Part shown: one piece after another, positions 7,119-58,637 of the stretch
Layout: the number at the start of each line of letters is the position of its first letter
Numbering within the stretch: the stretch's first letter is position 1
Source: Plantactinospora endophytica
GTDB lineage: Bacteria > Actinomycetota > Actinomycetes > Mycobacteriales > Micromonosporaceae
Assembly: GCF_016862915.1 (NCBI RefSeq)
Contig: NZ_BONW01000034.1
Span: 1-64,000 of the forward strand
Direction: 5' to 3'
DNA: 64,000 nucleotides
Translations under genes and position numbers: made by a program
Notes under the pieces: model-generated
What the model was told of the DNA's origin: nothing
What the model saw: the letters and a program-made list of their open reading frames with translations, nothing else
Databases searched by the model: none

Positions 7119-9737
7119 TCACGGCAGGATCTCGACGTACCCGTCGGTTCCGTGCACGCGGATCCGCTGCCCGTCCCGGACGAGTCGGGTGGCGTCCAGC
7201 ACACCGACGACGGCCGGCAGGCCGTACTCCCGGGCGATCACCGCACCGTGGGTCATCAGGCCGCCCACCTCCGTCACCAGGCCCGTGATCGCGACGAACA
7301 GCGGCGACCAGCTCGGATCGGTGTAGGCCGTGACCAGGATGTCCCCCGGCTCGAAATCGGCCTCCGCGATGTCGAGGACGACCCGGGCCCTCCCCTCGAC
7401 GGTACCGGCGGAGACCGGTAGGCCGACCAGGGCGCCGGCCGGCACGCCGTCGCGCCGGTACGCCCCGACGACGGCCTCGCCGTCCGAGGTGAGCACCCGG
7501 GGCGGCGTGAGCCCCTGGTACGCCCGGAACGCGTCCTTGCGCCGCCGGATGAGCTCGTCGTCGGCCCTGTTCGAGCGCACGACGTCGTGCAGTTCCTGGA
7601 ACGTGAGAAAGAAGACGTCTTCGCGGTCCGGGATCACGTCGGCCCGCACGAGGCGGTCGGCCTCGGCCAGCAACGCCTGCTTGTAGACGAAGTAGCGGCT
7701 GACGATGCCGTACTTCGGGTACTCCCGGTACCCGATGAAGGTCCGGACCCGGTCGATCATCCACTTGGTCTCGGCGGCCTTCCGCTCCCCGTCCGGCAGG
7801 GCCCGCAGTCGGGCGAGTATGTCCCGTTCCTTCTGCTCCGCCTCCTGCCGTCCCTGCGCGAAGCGCCGCTCGGCGGCGCCCGGCTCGAAGTTCCTGACAT
7901 GGTCCAGGATCAGCGGCACGAGGGTACTGGGGCGTTCGCTCCAGCGCGGCCTCGTGATGTCGATCTCGCCGGCGCAGCGCATGCCGTACCGGTCGAGGTA
8001 TGCCTCGATGGCGTCGCGCGCCTCGGTACCGCCCGCGAGCTTCGGCAGGTCGTCCAGGAAGCCCTCGCCCCCGACACTCCGCAGGAACGCCACCACCTCC
8101 GGGTACGGGCGGATCACGTCGGCGACGTCGAGCAGCGCCAGTCCCATCTCCGAGGTGACGTTGTCCGGGGCGGACAGCGTGAGCGTGTCGGCCGCGTTCC
8201 TCTCGCCCAGCCACTCCTGTAGCTGGTCGTTGAGCCACCAGGTGGCCTCCATCCCCGCCATGATCGCCTGCATGTTCAGCGGATCGCCGAGAACCCGCTT
8301 GTGCTCCTCAAAGGCCCCCAGCAGGAAGTCGAACAGTGCCGGCCCGGTCAACGTCGCGATGTCGCGCCGGAGGGCCGCGATGGACGCCTGGCTGCGCCCG
8401 ACCAGCTCGGTGACGATGGCCGGGTCGTTCTCGATCGGGGTCGGCGCACCGCCGGGAGCTGGCGCCGAGCGGGCTGATCCTGCTGACCGGTCCGCTGCGT
8501 CCGGAAGCGACGGAAGGAAGTCGTCCCGGTCGAGAATGGTCTCCAGTGCGTCCCGGAGCAGCGGATCGGACCTTCCCACCATCTCCAGGAAGCCGGCGCG
8601 GCTCGTCGGCGAGGCCAGCCGCCGGGTGGCGTCGACGAACAGCCTTCCGCCGGCCTCGTGCATCGGCGCCATGGCCGTCAACTGCCACACGGAGATCCCC
8701 AGTGGCTTCATGGGGTCGGTCATCATCTGTTGGTGCCCGACCGAGATGTAGACGTGGTTCTCCGCGTCGCCGGTCTCGGGAATGGGGAACAGCGTGGTGA
8801 TCGGCCTGCTCTGGACGACCTGGAACTCGTCGTCGACGAGGCACCACTCGATGTCCTGCGGGCTGCCGAAGTGCGCCTCGATCCGCCGGCCGAGCTGCAC
8901 GAGCCGTACGACCTGCGCATCCGTCAGCGCCGGCTGCTCCTGACGCTGCGGGTCGACCACCACTTCGCCGGTACCGCCGGCTGGCAGGGCGTGCACGGCA
9001 CGCTGCTTGGCGGCGATCGTCCTGGCGACGATCCGGCCGTCGCGCACCTTGAAGACGTCCGGGTTGACCAGGCCGGAGACCAGGGCCTCGCCGAGACCGA
9101 AGCTGGCATCCACGGTGGCGACCTTCCGGTTGCCGGTGACGGGGTCGGCCGTGAACAGGATGCCGGCCGCACGTGGGAAGACCATCTGCTGCACGACCAC
9201 GGCCATCTGGACCGTACGGTGGTCGATGCCGTTGCGCTGGCGGTAGGTCACGGCCCGCTCGGTGAACAGCGACGCCCAGCACCGGCTGACGTGCCGGAGG
9301 ATCGCCGCCGGTCCCACGACGTTCAGGTACGTGTCCTGTTGGCCGGCGAAGGAGGCCGTCGGCAGGTCCTCCGCCGTCGCGCTGGACCGCACGGCGTAGC
9401 CGACCTGCTCGCCGGGTCGAGCGAGCGCGCCCGTGATCGCCGCCGCGAGATCGCCCGGAACGGCGATCTCTTCGATGGTCCGGCGGACCTCCGCGCTGAG
9501 CGTGCGGATCGCCTCCCGATCGTCCGGCCGCAGGCGTGAGAGCCGATCGAGGCGGTCGTCGATCGACGGCGCCTCCGCCATGATCCGCCGAAAGGCGTCC
9601 GTCGTCACGCAGAAGCCGGTCGGCACCCGGATGCCTTCGACCCGGGTCAGCTCGCCCAGGTGCGCGCCCTTGCCGCCGACGACCGCGACCCGCGTCTCGT
9701 CGACATCTTGAAGATCCAACACGTACTGCTCGATCAT
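7119..9737 (-). CDS. rph: Rifamycin-inactivating phosphotransferase
   Basis: 872 residues, the usual length for Rph. The enzyme uses ATP and water to phosphorylate the ansa-chain hydroxyl of rifamycins, releasing AMP and phosphate, which gives resistance. Domains in order are a PPDK/PEP-synthase-like ATP-grasp domain (about 1-320, starting with VGGKGAHLGEL and containing AVRSSATAEDLPTASFAGQQ), a rifamycin-binding middle with the family-typical ENHVYISVGHQQMMTDPMKPLG, and a C-terminal swivelling domain. Its catalytic histidine is H830 in GGLMTHGAVIAREYGLPAVVG, matching the position in Listeria RPH. ATG 9737 has GGAGGT upstream. The RAE at 9932-9950 strongly supports the assignment and implies rifamycin induction. 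Confidence 0.95.
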   Translation of the reverse strand: MIEQYVLDLQDVDETRVAVVGGKGAHLGELTRVEGIRVPTGFCVTTDAFRRIMAEAPSIDDRLDRLSRLRPDDREAIRTLSAEVRRTIEEIAVPGDLAAAITGALARPGEQVGYAVRSSATAEDLPTASFAGQQDTYLNVVGPAAILRHVSRCWASLFTERAVTYRQRNGIDHRTVQMAVVVQQMVFPRAAGILFTADPVTGNRKVATVDASFGLGEALVSGLVNPDVFKVRDGRIVARTIAAKQRAVHALPAGGTGEVVVDPQRQEQPALTDAQVVRLVQLGRRIEAHFGSPQDIEWCLVDDEFQVVQSRPITTLFPIPETGDAENHVYISVGHQQMMTDPMKPLGISVWQLTAMAPMHEAGGRLFVDATRRLASPTSRAGFLEMVGRSDPLLRDALETILDRDDFLPSLPDAADRSAGSARSAPAPGGAPTPIENDPAIVTELVGRSQASIAALRRDIATLTGPALFDFLLGAFEEHKRVLGDPLNMQAIMAGMEATWWLNDQLQEWLGERNAADTLTLSAPDNVTSEMGLALLDVADVIRPYPEVVAFLRSVGGEGFLDDLPKLAGGTEARDAIEAYLDRYGMRCAGEIDITRPRWSERPSTLVPLILDHVRNFEPGAAERRFAQGRQEAEQKERDILARLRALPDGERKAAETKWMIDRVRTFIGYREYPKYGIVSRYFVYKQALLAEADRLVRADVIPDREDVFFLTFQELHDVVRSNRADDELIRRRKDAFRAYQGLTPPRVLTSDGEAVVGAYRRDGVPAGALVGLPVSAGTVEGRARVVLDIAEADFEPGDILVTAYTDPSWSPLFVAITGLVTEVGGLMTHGAVIAREYGLPAVVGVLDATRLVRDGQRIRVHGTDGYVEILP

Positions 9738-9931
9738 CGCCGTACCTCCGTGGCACCCGTACTCCCCCGCACTCCGCTGCCCGATCGGGCCACCCACGCC
9801 TCCACCGCCGCTCCGGGCACCGGCACGGCCTCGCCGTCACCGCGTCCCTCGTAGGTCGACCCCGACACACGCACGTCGTGCCCCCATTTCTGCAGGTTGT
9901 GGCCTCGGCCGACGATTCTGCGCCAGGACAC

Positions 9932-9950
9932 GGGTCTTGCCGCAAGCCCC
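9932..9950 (-). promoter_or_regulatory. Rifamycin-associated element (RAE)
   Basis: On the minus strand the 19-mer reads GGGGCTTGCGGCAAGACCC: 9-bp arms around one central base, one mismatch between the arms. This closely matches the RAE described upstream of actinobacterial rifamycin-resistance genes (rph, helR and others), where it mediates rifamycin-inducible expression. It lies about 195 bp before the rph start. A possible -10 (TATAAC, minus strand, 9958-9963) sits just upstream of it. Recognition is from memory of the published consensus. Confidence 0.85.
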
Positions 9951-9973
9951 CGGGTGCGTTATACGTTAAGAGT

Positions 9974-9995
9974 GGCAGGGAGACATTTCCCTGCC
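9974..9995. promoter_or_regulatory. Inverted repeat between rph and LysR gene
   Basis: A perfect 8-bp inverted repeat, GGCAGGGA-6 nt-TCCCTGCC, followed on the plus strand by TTTGT. It lies 24 bp from the RAE in the region between divergent rph and the LysR gene. It could be an operator, or a hairpin in the leader of the LysR transcript; the sequence alone does not decide. Confidence 0.45.
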
Positions 9996-10100
9996 TTTGT
10001 CCTTGCCGCCCGCCGGAATCGGCAAGCTTCCTGCGCAGCGGTTCGGCACCGGGTCGAGGCAACATCCGACGACCTGGGTTGGCCGTGATAGCTGTTGTCC

Positions 10101-11129
10101 ATGGACGTGCACCTGCGCGAGCTGCGCTACTTCGTCGCCGTGGCCGAGGAGCTGCACTTCACCCGGGCGGCCGAACGACTCTTCGTGTCCCAGCCGGCGC
10201 TGTCCAAACAGATCCGGGCGCTGGAGACGCGGCTCGGCTTCCCGCTGTTCGGCCGGACCGCCGCCCGGGGAGTCTGGCTCACCCCGGCGGGCGGCGCCCT
10301 GCTGCCGGCGGCCCGACAGACACTTGCCACGTTCGAGGAAGGGCTGACGGCGGCCCGACCACTGGCCCGGCGTCGGACGTTCACGGTGGGCATGCAGACG
10401 GCCGTCGGTCGGGATCTGCAAGGGCCGGCTCTCCAGGCGTTCCAGGCTTCGGCCGAGGGCTGGACGGTCTCGATTCGACTCGTCGGCTGGACCGACCCGA
10501 CCGCCGGCCTGGCCGACGGGAGCAGCGACGTGGCGTTCGTCTGGCTGCCGGTACCCGCCGACGGCCTCGACACCCGCACGCTGGCCCGGGAACGACGTTG
10601 GGTGGCCCTGGCCGCCAACCACCGGCTCGCCGGCACCGTCGGTCGTCACCTGGACAGCGGCGGCACCGGGCTCCGGCCGGCGGGCACCGGAGAGGCCGGT
10701 GCCGGTCCGGCCGGGATCGCCGTCGGCGGGGCGGTCGTAACCGGTCCCGACCCGAACGGTGCCGATCCGGCCGGGGTGGCCGAGCCGACCGCCGTCCGGT
10801 TCACCGACCTGCTCGCCGAGCCGTTCGTCGCGCTGCCCGCCGCCGCCGGACCGCTGCGGGACTTCTGGCTCGGGCTGCCGGAGCGGGGCGGCCGGGCGCC
10901 GGTGGTGGCCGGCGAGGCGAGTACCCCGGACGAGGTGTTCGAGATGGTCGCCGCAGGGCTGGGCGTGGCACTGCTCGCCGAGGGCAACGTCGACCTGTAC
11001 CGGCGGCGGGGCGTGGTGTGCCGTCCGGTACACGGCCTCGCGCCGGCCGAACTCGCCGTGGCCTGGCGGGTCGGCGACGAGCGGAAGGTGGTGGCGGACT
11101 TCCTCCACCGGCTGCCGGCACCGCTATAA
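10101..11129 (+). CDS. LysR family transcriptional regulator
   Basis: 342 residues. The N-terminal winged helix-turn-helix (about 1-60) is textbook: LRELRYFVAVAEELHFTRAAERLFVSQPALSKQIRALE. The effector-binding domain follows but is interrupted by a Gly/Ala/Pro-rich insert of about 45 residues (around 178-225) between its two halves, unusual for LysR proteins. ATG 10101 is preferred over TTG 10095, six bases upstream. It is divergent from rph with the RAE and a second inverted repeat between them. Regulation of rph by it is possible but RAE control does not require a LysR protein. Confidence 0.85.
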   Translation: MDVHLRELRYFVAVAEELHFTRAAERLFVSQPALSKQIRALETRLGFPLFGRTAARGVWLTPAGGALLPAARQTLATFEEGLTAARPLARRRTFTVGMQTAVGRDLQGPALQAFQASAEGWTVSIRLVGWTDPTAGLADGSSDVAFVWLPVPADGLDTRTLARERRWVALAANHRLAGTVGRHLDSGGTGLRPAGTGEAGAGPAGIAVGGAVVTGPDPNGADPAGVAEPTAVRFTDLLAEPFVALPAAAGPLRDFWLGLPERGGRAPVVAGEASTPDEVFEMVAAGLGVALLAEGNVDLYRRRGVVCRPVHGLAPAELAVAWRVGDERKVVADFLHRLPAPL

Positions 11130-11188
11130 CCGGTGGTTATCGAGTCGGGTCTTGGACGCCGGCACCGGCGGCGATCCACGATCGGGCC

Positions 11189-11698
11189 ATGCGCAGACCG
11201 CTTGCCACCACCCTGATGGCCGTCATCGTCGCCACCCTGACCGCCGCCTGCGGCACCGCCGAGCCGAGTCGGTCGGTCGACCCGCCACGGACGTTCGGCA
11301 GCCCGTCGGCGATCAGCCCGACCGCGTCGGCGCCCGTCGACGTCTCGCCCGGCGTGGCGGACGACGACCGGGCGGCGATCGAGGAGGTCGCGGCACGGTT
11401 CGCCACGGCGGCGAACGCCGGGGACGAGGAGGCGGTGGCCGCGCTCTTCGCCCCGGACGCACGCTTCGACAGCGTGGGCCGAATCTATCCGTCCCGGGAC
11501 GACATCATGACCCGGTTCCTGGTCCCCGAGGTGCTCCGGGTCGGCGGACGGTACGAGCCCGGCGAGCGGCGGTGGGACGGTACCCGACTGACCGTGACGT
11601 ACCGGTTCACCACCGCGTCCGGGGGGCGGGAGGAGTTCACCTACGCCTACCTGGTCCGGGACGGTCTGATCCGGGACGTGGTCGGCCGGTACCTCTGA
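11189..11698 (+). CDS. Putative lipoprotein with SnoaL/NTF2-like fold
   Basis: 169 residues. A signal sequence (MRRPLATTLMAVIVATLTAAC) ends in a lipobox-like TAAC with the lipidated cysteine at about residue 21. A Ser/Pro-rich spacer and a domain resembling NTF2/SnoaL cone folds follow, with AAIEEVAARFATAANAGDEEAVAALFAPDARF as the helix that opens such domains. The export and anchoring prediction is good. The ligand is unknown, and these domains often merely bind small molecules or dimerise. It starts 59 bp after the LysR gene and may share its transcript. Confidence 0.65.
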   Translation: MRRPLATTLMAVIVATLTAACGTAEPSRSVDPPRTFGSPSAISPTASAPVDVSPGVADDDRAAIEEVAARFATAANAGDEEAVAALFAPDARFDSVGRIYPSRDDIMTRFLVPEVLRVGGRYEPGERRWDGTRLTVTYRFTTASGGREEFTYAYLVRDGLIRDVVGRYL

Positions 11699-11821
11699 TT
11701 TCCGAACCGCCGTCGTCCCGGACGACCAGCTCGTGCCGCCGGCCGGCTCCGGTGCGAGCCGGTCGGCGGAGACCTCGGACTCGGCGGCTACGGACTCACA
11801 CGGACCGGTGCACGCCAGGGT

Positions 11822-12409
11822 TCAGGCGGCATCGAACCACGGCTCACCCGCCGCCCAGTGTCGGACCCAGCCGAGGAATCCCGACGTGCCGGTGGTGTGC
11901 CCGAACTCCCGGCCGAACGGGACCGCCCCCTCGCCGCTGATGTTCCAGATGTGGCCGCGATGCGGCCCCGTCACGACGAGATGCCAGTACATCCCGCAAC
12001 CGTCCGTGCCCAGGACGATCGATCCGTGGTCGAAGACCGGGTCGAGCAGCGGTTGGATCTCCGCGTACGGTCGGGGATCCTCCTCCCAGAGCCACGCCCG
12101 AGTCAGCGGAAAGGTGGCGCTCAGGTCGCGTACGGGGCGGGAGTCACCCCAGTCCTCGGGCATCTCGGCCAGCCCGACGAGGCCGAAGTCCGGCGGCCCG
12201 GAGAAGGACCCGTCCGTGATCTCCGCGACGAAGGACCGGTACGGCTCGGGCAGGACGATGCCGTGCTCCGCCTCGAAGGCGTACACCCCGGCCCAGCCCA
12301 GTGCCGACTCACCCGCATCGTCGACCTGGAGAGCAGCGCGGAGTTCGGCCAGGTGGTCCGGGTCGGCGTGATCCGTGTTCACGGGCGCAGAGTGTGCCAC
12401 ACGTCCCAC
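11822..12409 (-). CDS. SMI1/KNR4 family protein
   Basis: 195 residues with the SUKH/SMI1-KNR4 pattern: a short N-terminal helix, then AFEAEHGIVLPEPYRSFVAEITDGSFSGPPDFGLVGL, and later the family-typical GCGMYWHLVVTGPHRGHIWNI. SUKH proteins are often immunity proteins against polymorphic or contact-dependent toxins, or intracellular protein-binding modules. No toxin gene lies next to it, so it may be an orphan immunity protein. ATG 12409 lacks a strong ribosome-binding site, and GTG 12382 is an equally possible start. Confidence 0.75.
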   Translation of the reverse strand: MGRVAHSAPVNTDHADPDHLAELRAALQVDDAGESALGWAGVYAFEAEHGIVLPEPYRSFVAEITDGSFSGPPDFGLVGLAEMPEDWGDSRPVRDLSATFPLTRAWLWEEDPRPYAEIQPLLDPVFDHGSIVLGTDGCGMYWHLVVTGPHRGHIWNISGEGAVPFGREFGHTTGTSGFLGWVRHWAAGEPWFDAA

Positions 12410-12436
12410 CGTGTGCGCTCGACACCGCCGGCAGCT

Positions 12437-13903
12437 CTACCGCCCTTGCCGCTGCCGCCGACGTGGCAGGGCGCTGAGCAGGGGCGGAGACGTCCAGGCG
12501 GGTTCCCCTCGGCTCTGCCAACGTTCCAGGTCCGGCGTTTCCAGACGTGGCCGGCCCGACAGGTACAGCGCGGTTGCCCCGACGAGCCCGACGACGGCGA
12601 TGGCGAGACAGATCCAGAGCGCGTCGCGGGTACCGGCGATCTGGTTGTCGCCAAGTGTTCCGGCGAGGAACACCAGGATCGGGGCGGTCAGGAAGGCGGT
12701 CACGGCCCGCAGCAGTTCGATCAGGGCGAACACCCGTTGCAGTTGCTTCGACCGCAGGGACAGACCGGCCAGGAAGAGGGCCGGCGAGACCGCCGCCGCC
12801 ACGCCGAGCCCGATCAGGCCGGTGGCCGCCGCGAGGGCGGGATCGACCGCCGGAACGGTGACCATCAGCAGCGCGACGGCTGCCACGACCATCAGCAGCC
12901 CGGCGGCCGGCAGCAGCGGGGTGAACCGGGTACGGAACAGGACCGCGAAGAGTGCGGCGACGGCGATGGCCGCGACGAACTCCGGAAGGAAGACCAGCGC
13001 GGTGGTGGTCGGTGTGCTGGCGGTACGCAGCACCGCCAGGAGCAGCTCCATCGCCCCGAAGGCGGCGGCGCTGGTGGTGAGCGCGGCGAGAATCCCGGCC
13101 AGGGGCACGGAGGTGGCGAGCGCCTTGACCGGTACGAGCGGATTCGGCAGCCGGTACTCGTAGGCGACCAGGAACGCGATCAGCGCGGCCCCGGCGGCGA
13201 GCGGGACCACCGACTGCACGTCGGCGGTCATGCTGGCCTGTAGTTGGCCCGCGCCGTAAAAGGCCGCGCCACAGCCGGTGATGCCCAGGGCCAGTGCCAC
13301 GAAGTCCCAGGGTGCGCCGGGATCCTGGGCCGGTGTGTCGCGGAAGGTCAGTACCGCGAACAGCAACGCCAGGCCGGCAACCACCGCGACGCCCCAGAAC
13401 AGCCATCGCCAGCCGTGCGCGGCGGCCTGCAACGCGCCGACGGTCGGGCCGACGGACACGGCACCGAAGATGCACAGGTTCAGGATGCCGGCGCTGATCG
13501 GCATCTTGCGCGCCGGCCAGGAGGTGACCAGCGGGGGCAACGCGGCGATCAACATCAGGCTGGTCAGCAGCCCCTGGGCGATGTAGGCCCCGATGAACAC
13601 CGTCGCGTTCGGGGCTGCGGCGGCGAGTACGGAGGCGGCGAAGAAGCACACCTCGTAGCCGATGAGCATCCGGCGCGGCGGAAGGTGCAGGGCGAACTGC
13701 GCGGCCAGCAGGGTGCCGACGGCGTACGCCCCGGCGGAGAGGCTGACGGTCACCAGCAGGGCGGGGCGGGACATGCCGAGGTCCATGGAGATGATCTCGC
13801 TGAGCGGGAACACCGCCACCGTCAGGACCAGGTACGGGACCAGGGAACAGACGACCAGGGTCACCGCCCCGGGGTAACTGTTCGCGAGCGGTCCCTGGCG
13901 CAC
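12437..13903 (-). CDS. MFS transporter, DHA2-like (about 14 TM)
   Basis: 488-residue polytopic membrane protein with about 14 hydrophobic segments. The layout is that of the 14-helix drug:H+ antiporter family, and conserved charges occur in the loop after TM2 (ALHLPPRRMLIGYEV). It would export small hydrophobic compounds using the proton gradient. The start follows a divergent region shared with the epoxide hydrolase gene at 14098, which contains three inverted repeats. This suggests both are controlled by one TetR-like regulator encoded elsewhere. The short cytoplasmic tail is Arg-rich. Confidence 0.85.
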   Translation of the reverse strand: MRQGPLANSYPGAVTLVVCSLVPYLVLTVAVFPLSEIISMDLGMSRPALLVTVSLSAGAYAVGTLLAAQFALHLPPRRMLIGYEVCFFAASVLAAAAPNATVFIGAYIAQGLLTSLMLIAALPPLVTSWPARKMPISAGILNLCIFGAVSVGPTVGALQAAAHGWRWLFWGVAVVAGLALLFAVLTFRDTPAQDPGAPWDFVALALGITGCGAAFYGAGQLQASMTADVQSVVPLAAGAALIAFLVAYEYRLPNPLVPVKALATSVPLAGILAALTTSAAAFGAMELLLAVLRTASTPTTTALVFLPEFVAAIAVAALFAVLFRTRFTPLLPAAGLLMVVAAVALLMVTVPAVDPALAAATGLIGLGVAAAVSPALFLAGLSLRSKQLQRVFALIELLRAVTAFLTAPILVFLAGTLGDNQIAGTRDALWICLAIAVVGLVGATALYLSGRPRLETPDLERWQSRGEPAWTSPPLLSALPRRRQRQGR

Positions 13904-46055: not shown

Positions 46056-47141
46056 ATGACAGACCTTCGGAACGCGCCGGGCCGGCTCGCCGCCTCCCGC
46101 CCGCCCGGCGTCCCCGGCCGGGGTACGGCCGGCCGGCGGCGGGTCGCGGCGCTCGCCTGCGTACCCCTGATCGCGGTCGCGGCGGCCGGTTGCGGCGACA
46201 CCGGTGGCGCGGGCGGCGACAGCGCCGCGGTGAAGTATCCCACCCGGACCATCCAGTTGATGGCGCCCGCCGCGCCCGGTGGCGGCTGGGACAGCACCGC
46301 CCGGGCGATGCAGAAGACGCTCACCGACGGCAAGTTGGTCACCGAGTCGGTCGAGGTCACCAACGTGACCGGTGCGGGCGGCACGCTCGGACTGTCCCAG
46401 TTGGTCACCAAGAACAAGGGCGACGCGCACCACCTGATGGTGACCGGCCTGGTGATGATCGGCGGGGTGGTGACCAACAAGTCTCCGGTCAACCTCGGGC
46501 AGACCACTCCGATCGCGACGCTCACCGCCGAGCAGGAGGTCGTCGTCGTACCGGCGAACTCCAAGTACCAGACGTTGCAGGAGCTGATGGCCGACGCCAA
46601 GGCCAACCCGGGGTCGATCAACTGGGGCGGCGGCTCGGCCGGCGGCACCGACCAGATCCTGGTCGGACTACTCGCCAAGGCGGCCGGCGCGGACCCGAAG
46701 GCGATGAAGTACGTCGCCTACTCCGGCGGCGGCGAGTCGAAGGCGGCGCTGCTCTCCGGCGACCTGACCGCGGCCGTCTCCGGCGCCAGCGAGTACGCCG
46801 ACCTGGTCGCGGGTGGCCAGGTCCGCGCCCTCGCCGTCTCCGGCGCCACCGGCATCGACGTCGGCGCCGGCAAGCCCGCCCCCACCATCAAGGAGTCCGG
46901 GTACGACGTCGAGCTGATGAACTGGCGCGGCGTCGTCGCCGCACCCGGCATCTCCGACGGTGAGCGGGCCGCCATCATCGAGCTGGTCGACAAGCTGCAC
47001 GCCTCGGAGCAGTGGAAGCAGACGCTGGCCGCGCAGAAGTGGGACGACTTCTACCGCAGCGGTGACGAGGCGAAGGCGTACTTCGACCAGGAGAGCAAGC
47101 GGATCACCGACGTACTGACCGAGATCGGGCTGGCCGGTTGA
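46056..47141 (+). CDS. tctC: Tripartite tricarboxylate transporter, substrate-binding lipoprotein TctC
   Basis: 361 residues. A signal sequence ends in AAGC (lipobox). A Bug-type solute-binding fold follows, with IQLMAPAAPGGGWDSTARAMQ near the start and the conserved GGSAGGTDQILVGLLA that contacts the carboxylate of the ligand. It captures a tricarboxylate or related anion outside the membrane and delivers it to TctAB. GAGGAG precedes the ATG. Its stop overlaps the tctB start (TGATG). Two palindromes upstream suggest regulation. Confidence 0.95.
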   Translation: MTDLRNAPGRLAASRPPGVPGRGTAGRRRVAALACVPLIAVAAAGCGDTGGAGGDSAAVKYPTRTIQLMAPAAPGGGWDSTARAMQKTLTDGKLVTESVEVTNVTGAGGTLGLSQLVTKNKGDAHHLMVTGLVMIGGVVTNKSPVNLGQTTPIATLTAEQEVVVVPANSKYQTLQELMADAKANPGSINWGGGSAGGTDQILVGLLAKAAGADPKAMKYVAYSGGGESKAALLSGDLTAAVSGASEYADLVAGGQVRALAVSGATGIDVGAGKPAPTIKESGYDVELMNWRGVVAAPGISDGERAAIIELVDKLHASEQWKQTLAAQKWDDFYRSGDEAKAYFDQESKRITDVLTEIGLAG

Positions 47142-47800
47142 TGTCCTCGGAACCCGAGACCCGGGCAGGGGTGGCCGAGCCGGTCGCCCCTGCCCCGGCG
47201 CCCTGGGGAGCCCGCGTCCTCGGCGCCGTACTGCTGGCGGTGGGGCTCTTCCTGCTCTGGACGGCGTACCGGGCCGCCGGTGGTGACTACTCGGCCTCCG
47301 GGCCGTGGCTGGCCCCGCTGGTGGTGACGACCGGCTGGGTGGTGCTGGCGACCTGGTACCTGGTCGGCCAATTCCGCACGCCGCACCGGGTCGAGCCGGC
47401 AATCCTGGCCGAATCACACACTCCCCCCGGGCCGGAAGCCGCCGCCCGGCAGAACGACGAGCCGGACACGGCTGCCGCCCGGAAAGACGGGTCGAACGCC
47501 ACCGAGACCCGGAACGACGGGTCGGACGCCGTCGACGGTCGGGACGACGAGCCGGCGGCGGAGGTACGCGCGCTGCCGCCGGCCCTGGTCAGTGCCGCGC
47601 TGCTCGGTTACGTACTGCTGCTCGCCCCGGTCGGGTTCGTGCTCGCCTCGGCGCTGTTCTTCGTGGCCTGCGCCCGGATCCTCGGCAGCCGCGCCTGGCT
47701 GCGGGACATCGCCGTGGCGGTGCCGCTCGCGCTCGGCGTCTACTACGGCTTCACCCGAGGGCTCGACATCACGCTGCCGGCCGGGGTGCTGCCGCTGTGA
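47141..47800 (+). CDS. tctB: Tripartite tricarboxylate transporter small membrane subunit TctB
   Basis: 219 residues with four transmembrane segments (about 20-38, 52-70, 150-178 and 185-212). An unusually long hydrophilic middle (about 80-145) contains repeated NDE/DGS-type units ([26 protein letters not shown]), which is not part of a normal TctB. The subunit stabilises the transporter but is poorly conserved. Starts within the tctC stop (TGATG); its own stop overlaps the tctA start (GTGA). Confidence 0.85.
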
Positions 47801-51812: not shown

Positions 51813-52835
51813 ATGGCCCGCGCGACCCGTCCGAGGAGCAGATGGCTGGCCGGCGCGCTCGCCGCCGGCCTCGCCGTGCTGCTGGCCGCCGGGTCGGGCT
51901 GCGCCGACCGGCTCACGGACCGTGCGACCGGACTGCGGCTGCTGGTGCCCAACGCACCGGGCAGCGGCTACGACGTGACGGCCCGGACCGCCGCCAAGGC
52001 CATGGCGGACGCGGGCGTCGCCCGAGGGGTGGAGGTCTTCAACCTGCCCGGCGGCGGGGGCGTGGTCGGGCTCCGGCGACTCGGCTACGAGCGCGGCAAC
52101 CCGCACCTGATGATGCTGATGGGGCTCGGCGTGGTGGGCAGCCAGTTCGCCTCCGAGGCCCGGTTCACCCTCCAGGACACCACGCCGATCGCCCGGCTGA
52201 TCGAGGAGCCGGCGATCGTGGTGGTGACCCGCGACTCGCCGTACCGGGACATCGGCGGGTTGATCGCGGCCTGGCGGGCCGATCCGGCGAGCGTGCCGGT
52301 GGGCGGCGGCTCCTCCGCCGGTGGGCCGGACCACCTCGCCCCGATGCTGCTCGCGGACGCGGTCGGCATCCCGCCCCGGCAGGTGAGCTACCGGCAGTTC
52401 GACGGCGGCGGGGACCTGCTCGCGGCGATCCTCGACCACCAGGTCGACTTCGGTGTCTCCGGCCGCAGCGAGTACGCCGACCAGATCGCCTCCGGTCAGC
52501 TCCGGGTGCTCGCTGTGACCAGCGAGTTCCGCATCCCCGGCACCGCCGCGCCGACCCTGCGGGAGCGCGGTGTCGACGTGGTGTTCACCAACTGGCGGGG
52601 CATCGTGGCGCCGCCCGGACTGGCCGACCGGGACGTCGTCGCCATGCGTGACCTGGTCGCCCGGTTGCACGGCTCGGCGGAATGGCAGGCGGTCCTGGCC
52701 AAGTACGGCTGGACCGACGCGTACCTGGACGGCGCGGCGTTCGGTGACTTCCTCCGGGCCGAGAACGCCCGCCTCGCCCACGCCCTCGACGGGCTCGGCC
52801 TGCACCCGACCGGCCCGTCCGCTGCCGGCGGCTGA
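51813..52835 (+). CDS. TctC-like solute-binding lipoprotein, orphan
   Basis: 340 residues: a signal sequence with lipobox GSGC (cysteine about residue 30), then a Bug/TctC fold (LRLLVPNAPGSGYDVTARTAAKAM, VGGGSSAGGPDHLAPMLLADAV). It differs clearly from the first TctC and has no TctAB of its own. It is divergent from the CitA-type kinase, as in Bordetella where the BctC binding protein works with the BctDE two-component system. It may therefore be a sensing subunit as well as, or rather than, a transport subunit. ATG 51813 has AGGAT upstream. Confidence 0.85.
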   Translation: MARATRPRSRWLAGALAAGLAVLLAAGSGCADRLTDRATGLRLLVPNAPGSGYDVTARTAAKAMADAGVARGVEVFNLPGGGGVVGLRRLGYERGNPHLMMLMGLGVVGSQFASEARFTLQDTTPIARLIEEPAIVVVTRDSPYRDIGGLIAAWRADPASVPVGGGSSAGGPDHLAPMLLADAVGIPPRQVSYRQFDGGGDLLAAILDHQVDFGVSGRSEYADQIASGQLRVLAVTSEFRIPGTAAPTLRERGVDVVFTNWRGIVAPPGLADRDVVAMRDLVARLHGSAEWQAVLAKYGWTDAYLDGAAFGDFLRAENARLAHALDGLGLHPTGPSAAGG

Positions 52836-52973
52836 CCTCGGCGCCCCGGGTCTTCGGAGTCAACGGCGCGCGAACGACGGCCGGTCCATCCGGCGTCGGT
52901 GGTTGCCCCGGCGACCGGCGCACCGGCACGCGGACGACGGCACTCTTGCCCGTCCGGCGGCTGACCTCGGCGC
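52825..52973. repeat. 20-bp direct repeats flanking 109 bp
   Basis: CCGGCGGCTGACCTCGGCGC occurs at 52825-52844, covering the stop codon of the second tctC, and exactly again at 52954-52973, just before the 3' end of the STAND gene. The intervening 109 bp has no gene. It could be a local duplication or the scar of an insertion at the edge of the defence-like module. Confidence 0.65.
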
Positions 52974-52994
52974 GCGGGGCACCGGCGGGAGCGC

Positions 52995-55900
52995 TCAGCC
53001 CAGGGCGAGCCGGGCGAGGGCGTCCCGATGTGCCTGGATGCCCGCCCGCAGCTCCGTCGGCGCCGCCGGATGCCGGTCGAGCCACGCGTCGAGGTACCCG
53101 GTCGCCCGGCGTACGTCCTCCCCGGTGGCCCGCCCCGCGCCGGCATCGCGGCGCAACCGGTGAGCCACCTGCGGCAGCAGTTCGGCGGCGGTACCGTCGT
53201 CCACCCATACCTCGAGCCAGTCGAGCCCGACGGCCAGTATCCGGTCGGCCTCGGCGGGATCACCGGGGTTCCCGTCCCGCAGCACCGCGGCGAGCAGCCG
53301 GCCGGCACCGCTGACCCGCGAGGTCCCCGGCCCCAGTCGGGCGCAGGCGACGACCGAGGCGCGACGCCGCACCTCCGGCGGCAGGGTACGGTCCGTGAGC
53401 ACCCGGGCCAGCAGTTCGGCCGTCCGGCCGGATCCGGGGTTGCCCGCACACCACTCGACGCAGGTCGAGTGCAGTTCGTCCCGCACCGGCCCGTCGAGTA
53501 CGTCGACACCGCGCAGCAGGATCGGCAGCACCCACCCGGCCCGGACCGGCATCCCGTCGACGGCCAGTTCGCCGCACGCCCGGCCGACGAACCGGTTCCA
53601 CTCGGGCGTCGTCTCGGCGCGCTGCGTCAGCAGGACGTCCACCAGTCTGCGCCCCGAGTCGCCCAGCGGCAGCAGCCGGGAGAGCATCTGGACGGTACGG
53701 TCGACCAGCTTTCCCCGGTCTTCCCGGCTCGCCCGGGGGTTGCGCAGCGCGGCGGTCAGCAACTTGACCGCGCTCTCGTCGGACGGGTGCGCGCCGAGCC
53801 ACTCCAGCGTCGCGGCCAGCGCCGTCGCGTACTCCTCCGGAGTGAGGTCGTGGCGGGACAGCAGCGAGGTCATCGGGTAACTGGTGTGCGGGTCGCGGGG
53901 GTGACGAGCGACGTGTGCGAAGGTGAGGGCCAACAGGTCGGCCCGGAGGTCCGCCAGCCGGGACGTCTTGGCGAGCAGCGCCGGGAGCAGGTCCCGAGCC
54001 ACCGTCGGGCTCGGCGTCTCCCGGTACAGCGCCAGCGCCTCGTCCGCACACCGGCGCAGACTGTCGGCGTCGTCGTCGATGAGCCGGGTCTTCAGCAGCG
54101 CGCCGAGCACGCTGACCCGGGCGATCCGGGTCGTCTGCGGGCCGAAGAGCCAGCTCAGGGTGAGCGTGGCCAGATCCGCCGACTCGTCCTCGCTGAGCCG
54201 CGCCCACTTGTCGGTCTCCCGGCGGGCCAGGTGCAGCATGCGGTCGAGTACCCGTCCGGTCTCCTTCACGCCCGGGTTCTTCCGGAGCCAGTTCAGGGCG
54301 AGGCCCACGGCGTCGACGAAACTGTCCCGACTGCGGCGGTCGGGGATGATCAGGTTCTCCAGCACGTACGCGGCCTCGGGTCGCAGGCCGTAGCCCCGGG
54401 GATCCCTCAGCCACCGCAGCGACTCCTTCACCGCCTTCCTGACCACCGCGTCGGGCAGGTCGCGGCGCTGGCGCTGGCGGGCCAGCACGGCCTCCAGGGC
54501 GAAGCTGGCGTTGTACGGCTCCCGGGGCGCGATCCTGTCGAGCAGGAAGAGCGCGGTCGCCTCCAGGTCGGCACCGGTCAGCTCGGGACGCTGGACGAGC
54601 GGCGGGGCGACGTACGACGCGTTGCGGTGCGAGCCGTTGCGCCGCAGCCAGCCGAGGGCCCAGGCGACGACCCGGGCGGCGTGCGGATGGCCGGGTGGCA
54701 GGCCCAGCCTCCGGCTGTGGTCGAGCAGGTCGCGCAGCACGAACGAGGCGTTCGGGTGCGGCGCGTTCTGCGCCAGCCACCAGAAGGCCCGTTCCACCGT
54801 CCACTCGTCGTAGGCGGCATCGAGTCCCTCGGGCGGAGAGAGCCGGTGGAACGCGAACGCGGCCCGGGGGTTGCTGAGGTTGTGGCTGAGCCAGCCCATC
54901 ACGTACGGGTATCCGACCTGCGGGTCCAGGCACGAGGCGGTGGCGAGTACCCCGTCCCGGGATTTCGGGTCGCGGAAGTGCCGCCGTAGCCAGGATTCGG
55001 CGATCGGCTCGACCAGCCGGCGGATGCCCGGTCGCCAGCTCGGCAACCGCAGCAGGGTGTCCAGCGTCTGCCCGTCCGGGTCCCCGTCGAGCAGCGCGGT
55101 CAGTTTCTCGGCCTTGTCGACGCACCACTGCGCGACGGCGCTGTCGAGGGCCAGCCCGGTCGGCTCGCCGAGCGACTCCCGCAGCCGCTGCAACGCCACG
55201 GCCACGTTGCGCAGTACCCGCTGGTCGTCGAGGCCGGGTTTGAGGGTTCGGCGGAGTACCTTGACCCGGATCGCGCCGGAACCGTGGTCGTCCGTCCCGG
55301 AATCCGGTTCCACCAGCACCCTGGTGAGCAGGTGGTCGGCGTACAGGTCGTGCACCGTCCGAATGGTGTCGTCGCTCCGGCTCAGGATGCCGGCCCGGCA
55401 CAACGAGTCGAGTAGCCGAGAAGGCTGCCACGGATTGCCGAGCGGGCTGAGGATCTTGCCGCGCTTCTCCAGCGCCGACTCCAGCGTGCCGACGGACTGC
55501 GGGGTCGCGGCGGCGATCCAGGCCGCGGCGGTGAGCCGCCCGTCGGGCTTGGGGCTCGGTTCCCCCTCCGGCACCGACGGCAGCCGCAGTTCCTCCCGGT
55601 CCAGCACCTTGCCCAGCCAGCCGGCGACGTCGTCGCCGCCGAGCGGTACCGCCGTGCTGATGTCGAGCCCTTCGGACGCGGCATCGTTGTAGTAGCGGGC
55701 GAGCATCACCGCGATGGCCGGGATCCCCCGGCAGATCGTCAGCACGTGCGCCTCGCCCGTCTGGTCCACCGCCGCCCCGGCCGCGGTCCGCACCGCCCGG
55801 CGCACGATCGCGGCCTGGTAGCCGGGGTCGGCCCGGACCTCGATGACCTCGAATGCCCCTCCCGGCTTCAGCTTCCCACCGGTCCTGCGCAGCGCGGCGG

Positions 55901-57092
55901 TCCGGACGGGGCCGAGGACGGCCACCCGCGCGCCGACGTTGTGCGCGCCGTCCCGCAGCGCCCGGACCGTTTCCGCGGTGGTGTCGGCGAGCCATTCGAG
56001 GTCCTCGACGACCAGCAACACCGGCGCGGAGAGCACCTGGACACTTCGCCAGGCGTCCTCTATGGACGCCCGATGACCCGGTTCCCCGAGGTGGATGACG
56101 ACCCAACCCTCGCGCTCGGCGAGTGCGGCGGTTTCCAGGCAGAGGCGGGTCTTGCCCACTCCGGGTATCCCGGCCAGCATCACCCCGAGCTGCGGATCGG
56201 CGCTCTCCGCCGTACGGGTCAGCGCGGCGAGCACCCGGCCGGGTGAGCTCGGATGGTCGCCCGGATCCACGAAGGGCAGCCTGCCGGGGGTGAGGAACGG
56301 TTTCTCGGCGGTCAGCTTGTCGGCGTGGTCGCCGTACGCGGTCAGCGCCGGACAGCCGCGGTTCCAGCCGTCCGGTAGGACCGGGCGCGGATCCGGCTGG
56401 ATGTCCTCGGCGGCGAGGAGGTCCCGCCACCGTTGGTCGGTGACGGCGTCGAGCGCGCCGACCGTGTGCTGGCTGCCCCCGCCGTCCGGAAGGTGTTCCC
56501 GGAACACCCCAACGAGTAGGTGGGACTCGTCGGTGAAGACCGCCGCGCCGGACATTCCCCGCCAGGGGCTGTCGTCCGGCGTCGGCGCCGGCGCCGGCGT
56601 GGCGTCGAGCTGGAAGTCCAGCGTTCCGGGCCGGGCGGGATCGGCGCCGGTGAGGATGCGACCCAGGGTCTGCGTCCGGCCACGCCGTCCCTCCCCGGTC
56701 TCCCTGATCCTCAGTTCGGCGTGTTTCGGGAACCCCATCGCGACGGCGCTGACGGTCGTCGCCCTGGTCCGGTCCACCCGGCCCAGCCGGACCGGTGCGA
56801 CCTGCTCCGGCGGCGGCTCGTCGAGGCGTAACAGGGCGAGGTCGACACCGTCGTGGCCGCGCCACACGCAGGTCGCCCGCCGGCTCTTGCCGTCGCCGCC
56901 CAGCTCGACGAGGAGCGACACCCCGTCCGGGCCGCAGTCGGCCGGCACCTTGTCGAAGACGTGCCCGGCGGTGAGCACGAGTCGATCGGATATCTGGTAA
57001 CCGGTACCGAAGTAGGGGTACTCGGTTTCCGGGGGGCAGTGCACGAAGACTCCCGCCACCCGGCCGGGTCGAGGTTCGGTATCCCTGGCCAC
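52995..57092 (-). CDS. Trypsin-like protease / STAND NTPase / helical-repeat protein
   Basis: 1365 residues, no signal peptide. (1) A chymotrypsin-fold protease domain (about 8-230) has an intact triad: H44 in LTAGHVF, D84 in GVDLALLRL, S181 in WRGMSGAAVF. (2) A STAND-type NTPase (about 300-560) has Walker A GIPGVGKTR (308-316) and Walker B VLLVVEDLEWL (E363-D364). (3) A long helical solenoid (about 600-1365) includes repeats like FWWLAQNAPHPNASFVLRDLL, GWLRRNGSHRNASYVAPPLV and LRWLRDPRGYGLRPEAAYVLENL. This is the layout of NTP-dependent conflict switches: the repeats sense, ATP drives assembly, the protease is the effector. It lies 16 bp after a trypco2 gene in the same operon. Target unknown. 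Confidence 0.85.
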   Translation of the reverse strand: MARDTEPRPGRVAGVFVHCPPETEYPYFGTGYQISDRLVLTAGHVFDKVPADCGPDGVSLLVELGGDGKSRRATCVWRGHDGVDLALLRLDEPPPEQVAPVRLGRVDRTRATTVSAVAMGFPKHAELRIRETGEGRRGRTQTLGRILTGADPARPGTLDFQLDATPAPAPTPDDSPWRGMSGAAVFTDESHLLVGVFREHLPDGGGSQHTVGALDAVTDQRWRDLLAAEDIQPDPRPVLPDGWNRGCPALTAYGDHADKLTAEKPFLTPGRLPFVDPGDHPSSPGRVLAALTRTAESADPQLGVMLAGIPGVGKTRLCLETAALAEREGWVVIHLGEPGHRASIEDAWRSVQVLSAPVLLVVEDLEWLADTTAETVRALRDGAHNVGARVAVLGPVRTAALRRTGGKLKPGGAFEVIEVRADPGYQAAIVRRAVRTAAGAAVDQTGEAHVLTICRGIPAIAVMLARYYNDAASEGLDISTAVPLGGDDVAGWLGKVLDREELRLPSVPEGEPSPKPDGRLTAAAWIAAATPQSVGTLESALEKRGKILSPLGNPWQPSRLLDSLCRAGILSRSDDTIRTVHDLYADHLLTRVLVEPDSGTDDHGSGAIRVKVLRRTLKPGLDDQRVLRNVAVALQRLRESLGEPTGLALDSAVAQWCVDKAEKLTALLDGDPDGQTLDTLLRLPSWRPGIRRLVEPIAESWLRRHFRDPKSRDGVLATASCLDPQVGYPYVMGWLSHNLSNPRAAFAFHRLSPPEGLDAAYDEWTVERAFWWLAQNAPHPNASFVLRDLLDHSRRLGLPPGHPHAARVVAWALGWLRRNGSHRNASYVAPPLVQRPELTGADLEATALFLLDRIAPREPYNASFALEAVLARQRQRRDLPDAVVRKAVKESLRWLRDPRGYGLRPEAAYVLENLIIPDRRSRDSFVDAVGLALNWLRKNPGVKETGRVLDRMLHLARRETDKWARLSEDESADLATLTLSWLFGPQTTRIARVSVLGALLKTRLIDDDADSLRRCADEALALYRETPSPTVARDLLPALLAKTSRLADLRADLLALTFAHVARHPRDPHTSYPMTSLLSRHDLTPEEYATALAATLEWLGAHPSDESAVKLLTAALRNPRASREDRGKLVDRTVQMLSRLLPLGDSGRRLVDVLLTQRAETTPEWNRFVGRACGELAVDGMPVRAGWVLPILLRGVDVLDGPVRDELHSTCVEWCAGNPGSGRTAELLARVLTDRTLPPEVRRRASVVACARLGPGTSRVSGAGRLLAAVLRDGNPGDPAEADRILAVGLDWLEVWVDDGTAAELLPQVAHRLRRDAGAGRATGEDVRRATGYLDAWLDRHPAAPTELRAGIQAHRDALARLALG

Positions 57093-57108
57093 CGCACGAA
57101 CCCCCGAC

Positions 57109-57474
57109 CTATCGCGGCGGTCGCCGCACCCTGTCGTTCGTCTGTACCGGATCTCCGCCGGCAGTCCTGGCGTCGAGTTGGATCCGCAGGGTCTGTACGT
57201 CGCTGCGGCTCTCCGACGCCCTCGCCCCGGCCGAGATCACGTAGACCTTGATGCCGCCCTCGACGTCCCCGGCGCGGGTGAGCGTGGTCTGCAACTCCAG
57301 CTCGAGCGAGGAGACGCCGAGTCGTACCGGTCCGCCCTCGGCCTCGGCCGCCTCCATCGCCTCGGCGAGTTCCCTGCGGATCGCGCCGAGGGCGGCCGCC
57401 AGGCCGATCTTCTGGTCGTCTGCCAACGAACTCAGCACCCCCATGACTGGCCGGACTGCGGCAACTCCGGCCAT
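57109..57474 (-). CDS. Trypco2 (trypsin-co-occurring domain 2) protein
   Basis: 121 residues. After a helix DQKIGLAAALGAIRRELAEAMEAAE (about 20-45) comes a beta-rich core, VRLGVSSLELELQTTLTRAGDVEGGIKVYVISAGARASESRSDVQTLRIQLD. This is the signature of the trypco2 family, named for its co-occurrence with trypsin-like proteases in actinobacterial conflict systems. It probably links or gates the protease-STAND protein encoded 16 bp downstream. Start ATG 57474 or ATG 57444; neither has a strong ribosome-binding site. The C-terminal tail is basic. Confidence 0.8.
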   Translation of the reverse strand: MAGVAAVRPVMGVLSSLADDQKIGLAAALGAIRRELAEAMEAAEAEGGPVRLGVSSLELELQTTLTRAGDVEGGIKVYVISAGARASESRSDVQTLRIQLDARTAGGDPVQTNDRVRRPPR

Positions 57475-57596
57475 TCTCGCGCATTCGGTCCAGCATGGTC
57501 CACCGCGCTCCGCCGCCCTCCATCCTCATCGGACGGCGCGGTAGAGTCGCCCGCGACCGGCAACCCCGCCGGCACCTCCCCGGACAGGAGCCCGCC

Positions 57597-58637
57597 GTGG
57601 CCGCCTCCGCCCACCGGTCGGCACGGGCCGCCGCCGCTCTGCTCACCGCCGCCGTCCTCGGCACGGTCCCGACAACGCACGCGTCGGCGGGCACGGCGCC
57701 GGCCGGCGACACCGCCGTGGCGGCGGAACGGGTGCTGCGGGTCTACAACAACAACATCGAGAACCTCGTCGTGAACAACGCCGACGGCACCTGCACCCGG
57801 ATCTCCGGGCCGGACCACCTCACCTCGATGCTGGTCGACGACAGTGGACGGACCGGTACGGCCGGCGTGGTCGCCCCCGACCTGCTGATCGTGCAGCAGG
57901 TGCGGGGCACCGGGCAGGCGGAGGCGTACGCCGACCAGCTCTCGGCCAAGTTCGGCTACCCGGCCGGCACCTACGGAGCGATCGTGGCCTGGGCCGACCC
58001 GGAGCCCTGGGGCAGCACCCACAAGTGCAGCTCCCAGTCGCTCGGCGACCTGAAGAAGAAGCAGACCAACGGGATCCTCTACAACACCCGGACGCTCAGC
58101 CTGGCGGCCGGGGACGTCTCGAAGTACTGGAGTGCCGGCTGGCTGAGGCCCGGCACGGCGTACGCGAACGGTGCCGGCTGCACGCTCTACAAGCCGCCGA
58201 ACAGCGACCCGGACAGCACCGACTATTACAAGTGGAAGCGAACCAGCGCCATCGCGGCGAGGTTCACCGTCAAGGCGACCGGCACCACGGTCTTCGCCGC
58301 GACGATGCACCTGCCGCAGGAGAACCGGCAGAACGCCTGCGCCGGGGACGGCTACACCGGCATCGGCGGTACCGGCATCCACCTCGGTGCGGACGCGACC
58401 AGTCTGATGAACGCCTCGACGATCCGGGTCGTCGGGATCGACGCGAACCGCACCGGCATCCCGGCCAGCACGCTGAGCGGCTTCGGCATGACCGGTTACG
58501 GGACCGGCGCGACCAGCGGCTCCAGCAAGATCGATTATCTGTTCGTCCGGGGTACCGTGCAGCCGTCCGCCATCGGCCACACGGTGCGCGGAACCAGGTC
58601 GAACCACCTGGCCCTGTACGGCTTCATCACCTACTGA
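57597..58637 (+). CDS. Secreted endonuclease/exonuclease/phosphatase-fold protein, catalytic residues altered
   Basis: 346 residues with a signal peptide (1-31). The EEP fold is recognisable: LRVYNNNIENL (48-58), PDLLIVQQVRG (94-104), VVGIDANRTG, SKIDYLFVRG and RSNHLALYGF (334-343). The canonical metal-binding Glu of the LQEV motif appears as Gln (Q100-Q101) and the SDH motif is S335-N336-H337, with Asn for Asp. It may thus have weak or altered activity, or bind rather than cut. GTG 57597 follows AGGAG. Divergent from the trypco2 gene across 122 bp. Confidence 0.7.
   Translation: MAASAHRSARAAAALLTAAVLGTVPTTHASAGTAPAGDTAVAAERVLRVYNNNIENLVVNNADGTCTRISGPDHLTSMLVDDSGRTGTAGVVAPDLLIVQQVRGTGQAEAYADQLSAKFGYPAGTYGAIVAWADPEPWGSTHKCSSQSLGDLKKKQTNGILYNTRTLSLAAGDVSKYWSAGWLRPGTAYANGAGCTLYKPPNSDPDSTDYYKWKRTSAIAARFTVKATGTTVFAATMHLPQENRQNACAGDGYTGIGGTGIHLGADATSLMNASTIRVVGIDANRTGIPASTLSGFGMTGYGTGATSGSSKIDYLFVRGTVQPSAIGHTVRGTRSNHLALYGFITY

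Follow-up and report, generated by a model that had tools for sequence, protein, structure and literature searches.

A trypco2 gene and a trypsin–STAND–solenoid gene of Plantactinospora endophytica as a candidate protease-armed immune receptor

The genome of Plantactinospora endophytica raises the question of what a small trypco2 gene is doing directly in front of a gene whose product joins a protease, a STAND NTPase and a long repeat region in one chain. The pair lies in a stretch of 64,000 nucleotides (contig NZ_BONW01000034.1, positions 1 to 64,000; hereafter the window), and a first-pass annotation made from its sequence had proposed that it forms a self-contained conflict system. Our comparisons suggest that the two genes probably encode an immune receptor of the NLR-like STAND type whose effector is a protease and which would act in defence, with Trypco2 as the partner of the protease.

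A protease, a switch and a repeat region on one chain

Both open reading frames (ORFs) and the 16 bp between them were borne out; both genes are on the minus strand, in head-to-tail order with trypco2 first, and the first-pass annotation had not named the strand. The trypco2 product scores 67 bits against the Trypco2 family of Pfam (cut-off 24.2) and lies 16 bp from the trypsin gene; it consists of a single small domain, with no other Pfam family over its cut-off. The receptor was compared within a family of 51 members: 48 loci found with one peptide pattern from the STAND alignment in 84,980 species genomes and nine further ones, 57 in all, less six duplicates (L029, L030, L056, L058, L073 and L075, equal to L016, L017, L020, L022, L024 and L019, respectively). 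Because the 48 loci come from a single pattern, the family is undercounted.

At the N-terminus, Trypsin_2 of Pfam matches residues 29–196 with 46.8 bits (cut-off 27.6), and the catalytic triad that had been read from the sequence, H44/D84/S181, is correct and intact. Across the trypsin-type members the His is present in 35/35, the Asp in 34/35 and the Ser in 35/35. In a single trypsin-type member, L048, the catalytic Asp is replaced by His; this member is also the only one for which no trypco partner of any kind was found. Searches with models of known defence systems gave weak matches to the protease part, at 20.2 bits for LmuA (residues 38–201) and 14.4 bits for RT-Protease in PADLOC, and at 15.5 bits for the NCBIfam model Avs1b, whose cut-off is 1500.

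The protease is followed by a nucleotide-binding switch with Walker A at residues 308–315, Walker B at 359–363, a GxP-like P458, an MHD-like H581-D582 and D586, GxP and MHD being the usual names of these STAND motifs. In an alignment of 49 of the 51 members, which leaves out L059, with its shortened ORF, and L064, which a contig end interrupts, G308, G313 and K314 are each present in 49/49, as had been anticipated for K314, and residue 315 is Thr or Ser. Position 363 of Walker B is Asp or Glu in 48/49, P458 is conserved in 49/49, and in the MHD-like region H581 and D586 are invariant (49/49 each), with D582 in 45/49. By its Walker A/B, GxP and MHD-like motifs and its domain order, the window protein would be an NLR-like STAND NTPase, as the proposed Walker A/B STAND assignment implied. 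The nSTAND_NTPase5 model reaches 21 bits on the whole protein and 23 bits on the domain, below its curated cut-off of 34, and AAA_16 matches the NTPase domain with 33.7 bits, just over its cut-off of 32.6. When the STAND domains of 39 members were scanned with Pfam and PADLOC models at E 1e-3, nSTAND_NTPase5 matched 37, NACHT two and nSTAND3 two; mad8 matched three and SspF one, and no member matched an Avs model of PADLOC. Solved structures gave general P-loop matches only when searched by profile, and no match when searched with the single protein.

The degenerate solenoid that had been proposed for the C-terminus is real, but in the window copy it is weaker than the annotation had it. In an ungapped self-comparison the best pair of segments shares 12 of 35 identities, under the best of 10 shuffles (14), whereas a profile built from 56 repeats of 22 members, none of them from the clade of the window protein, scores 44.6 bits on the window solenoid and no more than 6.7 on any of 200 shuffles. 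Two clear repeat copies lie at residues 766–793 and 809–841. The same profile finds the solenoid in 50/51 members and in 28/29 members that gave no seed; the only member in which it was not detected is L059, whose ORF is truncated. The family repeat consensus, ALxWLxxHGxxxxAxFVLxxLL, takes in the N-A-S-F/Y signature that had been pointed out earlier, and the fold is probably helical. Near-identical repeats occur in 13/49 solenoids, where two 35-residue stretches share at least 26 identities, in some cases 35/35 (shuffles at most 15). In Dactylosporangium aurantiacum (L022, the same locus as L058) the last stretch of the ORF reads repeats out of frame and more copies stand in a second frame, by repeat slippage, strain variation or sequencing error. 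The same solenoid ends two large Streptomyces plasmid proteins (L093 and L094), on which the profile scores 187 and 174 bits (at most 6.3 in 200 shuffles). Each is the third protein of an operon that also encodes VMAP-M2 (193 and 160 bits) and an ATPase, which is annotated as MoxR in one operon and as AAA in the other; no vWA domain was found in the large proteins by Pfam (for one of them, among 25 of the 40 families listed).

Table 1 Features of the two-gene unit in the window (residue numbers refer to the receptor)
Feature	Position	Strand	Basis
Cassette, approximate ends	52833..57537		in window and P. mayteni, absent in congener G032
trypco2 gene, 121 aa, ATG start	57474-57109	minus	Pfam Trypco2, 67 bits
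Trypsin–STAND–solenoid receptor gene, 1365 aa, GTG start	57092-52995 (stop codon within coordinates)	minus	
Trypsin-fold serine protease domain, ~residues 29-236	56385..57008	minus	H44, D84, S181; Pfam Trypsin_2
STAND NTPase and presumed winged-helix part, ~residues 251-600	55293..56342	minus	motifs, nSTAND_NTPase5
C-terminal solenoid, ~residues 766-1365, ~38-aa repeats, mostly degenerate here	52998..54797	minus	repeat profile

Trypco2 as the probable partner of the protease

The coupling of trypco2 to the receptor gene, proposed from the window, recurs in the family: a Trypco2 gene stands directly upstream on the same strand in 28/35 trypsin members (window included) and in 0/16 others (Fisher p=3.4e-8, with kin treated as independent). 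Among the seven trypsin members that have no adjacent Trypco2, L071 has a Trypco1 gene upstream (71.6 bits), five have a Trypco2-like gene one gene further upstream, and L048 has none that was found. The five, of Micromonospora type, encode a protein of ~128 aa, which has no Pfam match in the one scanned and whose profile aligns with Trypco2 over 65 columns (hhalign probability 93.4, E 2.4e-7). One of these loci, L057, has a gene for a pentapeptide-repeat protein (8412-9266; 46 bits) between the Trypco2-like and trypsin–STAND genes, and a similar ORF is found there in clade relatives.

In five relatives trypco2 and the receptor gene share 4 or 14 bases, an overlap which suggests that their translation is coupled. 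The divergence of Trypco2 is tied more closely to the trypsin domain than to the switch: across 28 pairs, Trypco2 distances correlate with those of the trypsin domain given STAND (partial r 0.66, p 0.0005) and less with those of STAND given trypsin (partial r 0.19, p 0.04).

Trypco2 also accompanies trypsin outside this receptor type. With other kinds of STAND protein the Trypco2 gene precedes a trypsin gene by 6 to 27 bp, namely with an NPHP3-type STAND (L026), a TPR-containing nSTAND5 protein (L023) and an nSTAND5 protein without recognised repeats (L025); it lies on the opposite strand at a trypsin–NACHT gene (L028), and beside a protein in which only trypsin is recognised (L027). Upstream genes of another kind accompany two of the other N-termini, with alpha/beta-hydrolase matches in the three caspase members, all under cut-off, and an LCAT-like gene (38 and 42 bits, cut-off 21) in both of the two scanned among five transglutaminase-like members.

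A sporadic family with exchangeable effectors

The trypsin layout does not stand alone: it is one of several effector types within a family of sporadic and mainly actinobacterial occurrence. By N-terminus, the 51 members comprise 35 trypsin, five transglutaminase-like, four short, three caspase-like, three endonuclease-like and one other, the transglutaminase-like, endonuclease-like and short classes being assigned by reading motifs; at E 0.01 Pfam supports Trypsin_2 in 35, Peptidase_C14 in two and Mrr_cat in one, and no transglutaminase model matched. Parsimony on a quick tree built from the 51 STAND domains counts nine effector changes, a number that falls when only well-supported branches are allowed to force changes, and 12 changes of effector and partner taken together, against 22 with shuffled labels. 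The clade of the window protein holds six other members, all with trypsin and Trypco2 (Shimodaira–Hasegawa-like approximate likelihood ratio test, SH-aLRT, 100).

Two of the short N-termini stand apart. In L069, a trypsin (9303-9989) and a STAND part (9695-13363) occupy two overlapping frames behind a Trypco1 gene (62.6 bits), and this member is counted as short in the class numbers above and as trypsin in the tree analyses. L037 (ORF 9803-13375) has a short N-terminus, in which a VVVQAQSISGGIHY stretch resembles the amyloid signalling motifs known from NLRs of bacteria. The idea that the short N-termini carry amyloid motifs was set aside: with the motif patterns used, one of three loci, L037, shows such a motif, and no neighbour repeats it.

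Hosts of the 48 loci are Actinomycetota, many of them Streptomyces, except for one Acidobacteria bin and one Sorangium (L043 and L074), both of which have endonuclease-like N-termini. Presence in drawn genomes is sporadic. The whole protein matches 14/150 genomes of the host family (its own included), nine of the matches spanning the STAND region. The counts for wider groups are lower bounds, with only 2 to 10 candidates scored per genome. The whole protein matches at least 1/296 genomes of the host class. A search with the STAND region found at least 7/200 genomes of the host order and at least 3/394 of the class (own included in each), and at least 1/296 of the phylum, the own one. A whole-protein scan of the contig collection gave 10 candidate stretches, none confirmed. 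A prophage or plasmid origin was considered and found no support: PHROGs gave no match, and plasmid records gave five partial matches, three of them in Streptomyces longwoodensis.

The closest other family match is that of P. mayteni (G078), which occupies an identical genomic site with full-length ORFs and with triad and switch residues intact as in the window. All seven genomes of the genus match DNA of the region somewhere, and the pair is present only in its own genome and in P. mayteni. In one congener (G032) the site is empty: the genes that elsewhere flank the 4.7-kb pair are ~0.1 kb apart; no flanking repeats around the cassette were obvious by eye. Ratios of nonsynonymous to synonymous substitution rates (dN/dS), obtained with our own counting script for one species pair, the window against P. 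mayteni, are 0.64 for the receptor (trypsin 0.59, STAND 0.73, solenoid 0.66) and 0.15 for Trypco2, as compared with 0.05–0.37 in 8/9 neighbours; a glycoside-hydrolase-like gene was left out for want of a counterpart in the stretch compared, and only 110 residues of the gene at 57495-58634 entered the comparison.

The pair is flanked by a convergent TctC gene and by a divergent ORF without a Pfam match. Farther out, among the 10 neighbouring ORFs that were picked by codon composition and searched with Pfam only, are a two-component system, TctC/TctB (tricarboxylate transport), an rRNA methylase, a GGDEF-EAL protein and an FKBP. Scans for consensus promoters and terminators at the pair gave no sites, where chance would give 0.1 and 0.7.

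A probable immune receptor and its alternatives

How might such a pair work? In our picture the C-terminal solenoid is the sensor, which would respond to an intruder or to a host component that has been disturbed. Binding of this ligand would release the STAND switch, a presumed nucleotide-dependent on/off module, which would probably gather copies of the receptor by oligomerisation, so that the assembled N-terminal proteases become active and the released proteolysis stops growth or kills the infected cell. Trypco2 would be a dedicated partner of the protease, as its gate, adaptor or first substrate, not a partner of the switch. The conflict logic that had been proposed for the locus agrees with effector swapping, sporadic presence, the empty site, the high dN/dS and the parts shared with VMAP-type systems.

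Comparison with described systems places the pair among relatives that share its parts in other arrangements. VMAP ternary (MoxR–vWA–VMAP) systems pair trypsin with Trypco1 or Trypco2 and caspase with an alpha/beta hydrolase (Kaur et al. 2020, PMC7159879); they likewise set the trypsin-like peptidase beside its Trypco protein, have caspase and transglutaminase-like peptidases as alternatives, and share the ~38-aa solenoid through the two plasmid operons that encode VMAP-M2. Unlike them, the window has no MoxR, vWA or VMAP gene among the 10 neighbouring ORFs scanned with Pfam, a single STAND protein replacing the core, and membership was rejected on this ground. In Avs1 and Hachiman, a pro-nuclease gene lies directly upstream of a protease-fused sensor and its product is cut by that protease (PMC12799240). 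Avs1 thus resembles our pair in its N-terminal trypsin-like protease on a STAND-type protein and in its upstream partner gene; it differs in that its partner is an MBL-type nuclease. As the upstream gene here is Trypco2 and not an MBL-type pro-nuclease, we rejected a nuclease–protease pair of the Avs1 kind, and likewise Avs (AVAST) membership, given that the Avs1b match is confined to the protease part and that the STAND domain of no scanned member (0/39) matches a PADLOC Avs model.

CARD-NLR systems and LypABC (PMC13236601) also couple a trypsin-fold peptidase to an NLR-like ATPase, with TPR-like repeats, but they divide these parts between two chains, an NLR-like protein and a peptidase protein that has a CARD as well as a divergent ATPase domain, whereas protease, switch and repeats form one chain here, with no CARD by Pfam. 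The protease part weakly resembles Lamassu LmuA-type effectors in PADLOC, at the 20.2 bits given above, with no other Lamassu part among the 10 neighbouring ORFs by Pfam. The STAND NTPases of Kaur et al. 2021 (PMC8195603) share the order effector–STAND–variable C-terminus, with trypsin or caspase at the N-terminus, but the C-terminal partner described for them is an FGS domain, not the solenoid found here, and 'Trypco' does not occur in the main text of that paper. Trypco2, protease–STAND pairings, effector swapping and the general architecture are already known; the exact layout, its effector swap series and the Trypco2 partner rule are new. The statement of the first-pass annotation that no such system had been described holds for the exact layout, of which we found no description in the literature searched, and goes too far for protease–STAND/NLR couplings, which are known from Avs1 and CARD-NLR/LypABC.

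Several observations weigh against an immune receptor. None of the 10 neighbouring ORFs is a defence gene by Pfam, no PADLOC model matches the window switch at E 1e-3, phage records hold no match, and 14 stretches of viral contigs found with one pattern gave none that was confirmed. The receptor dN/dS stays below 1, is as high in protease and switch as in the solenoid, and may reflect relaxed constraint; fast change of protease and switch together with the sensor fits an arms race or loosened constraint alike. A high value is also seen outside the pair, in TctB (window 47138-47797), whose dN/dS of 0.66 against P. mayteni is far above that of the other neighbours. The partner rule itself has few independent instances, since the well-supported branches give only two independent pairs that differ in trypsin, too few for a test; Trypco2 follows trypsin in about one of the two, and some trypco-like gene does so in both, none being contrary. 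Cleavage after Lys or Arg by the trypsin domain is doubtful, because residue 175, six before the catalytic Ser and presumably the S1-specificity position, is Ser in the window and in 22/35 trypsin members and Asp in 1/35.

Could the same architecture do another job? A role in developmental or stress signalling, for instance in programmed cell death during mycelium differentiation, would suit a family whose named hosts are nearly all actinomycetes, many of them Streptomyces, and whose window copy has housekeeping-type neighbours, and the CARD-NLR-like LypABC controls the release of gene transfer agents (PMC13236601). We regard this role as distinctly improbable, since sporadic presence, an empty site in a congener, a variable effector and a high dN/dS fit conflict better. 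Still less probable is a degenerating copy without a present function: the dN/dS of 0.64 and the degenerate repeats of the window copy would agree with decay, yet both ORFs are full-length, neither the window copy nor that of P. mayteni has lost triad or switch residues, and dN/dS is below 1 for the receptor and 0.15 for Trypco2.

A further alternative concerns Trypco2 and partly overlaps in probability with the immune receptor. Here the trypsin domain would cut Trypco2, a pro-protein and itself the final effector, and the receptor would be no more than its activator. The gene order matches that of the nuclease–protease pairs of Avs1 and Hachiman (PMC12799240), Trypco2 varies with the protease, and its dN/dS is low; its length of ~100 aa, its few conserved polar residues and the lack of any nuclease or other enzyme family over a Pfam cut-off speak against it, and on balance we think it somewhat unlikely. 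Within the immune-receptor reading, we lean, without strong conviction, towards Trypco2 as a regulator or adaptor of the protease; that it is a cleaved substrate or pro-effector is conceivable but has less in its favour, and some other role seems unlikely. A gate or adaptor is preferred over a pro-effector because Trypco2 shows no sign of being an enzyme. Cleavage of a dedicated partner is a live alternative to the cleavage of host or invader proteins that had been envisaged for the pair.

More broadly, and only tentatively, the receptor may belong to a combinatorial immune kit of actinomycetes, in which one-chain STAND receptors and MoxR–VMAP machines swap solenoid sensors and units of a partner gene with an N-terminal peptidase, among them Trypco2–trypsin, Trypco1–trypsin, alpha/beta hydrolase–caspase and LCAT-like hydrolase–transglutaminase, with Trypco proteins as a general protease-gating class. 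If so, one pool of protease–partner units and repeat sensors would feed both STAND receptors and MoxR–VMAP systems, and Trypco2–trypsin would be a protease–partner pair beyond the pro-nuclease pairs of Avs1 and Hachiman. The family offers a natural series of effector swaps on one receptor core, and its two-gene system makes the unsolved role of Trypco testable without a multi-gene machine. If the proposed role holds, Trypco proteins would be the counterpart, in bacteria, of those proteins by which inflammasome proteases are controlled.

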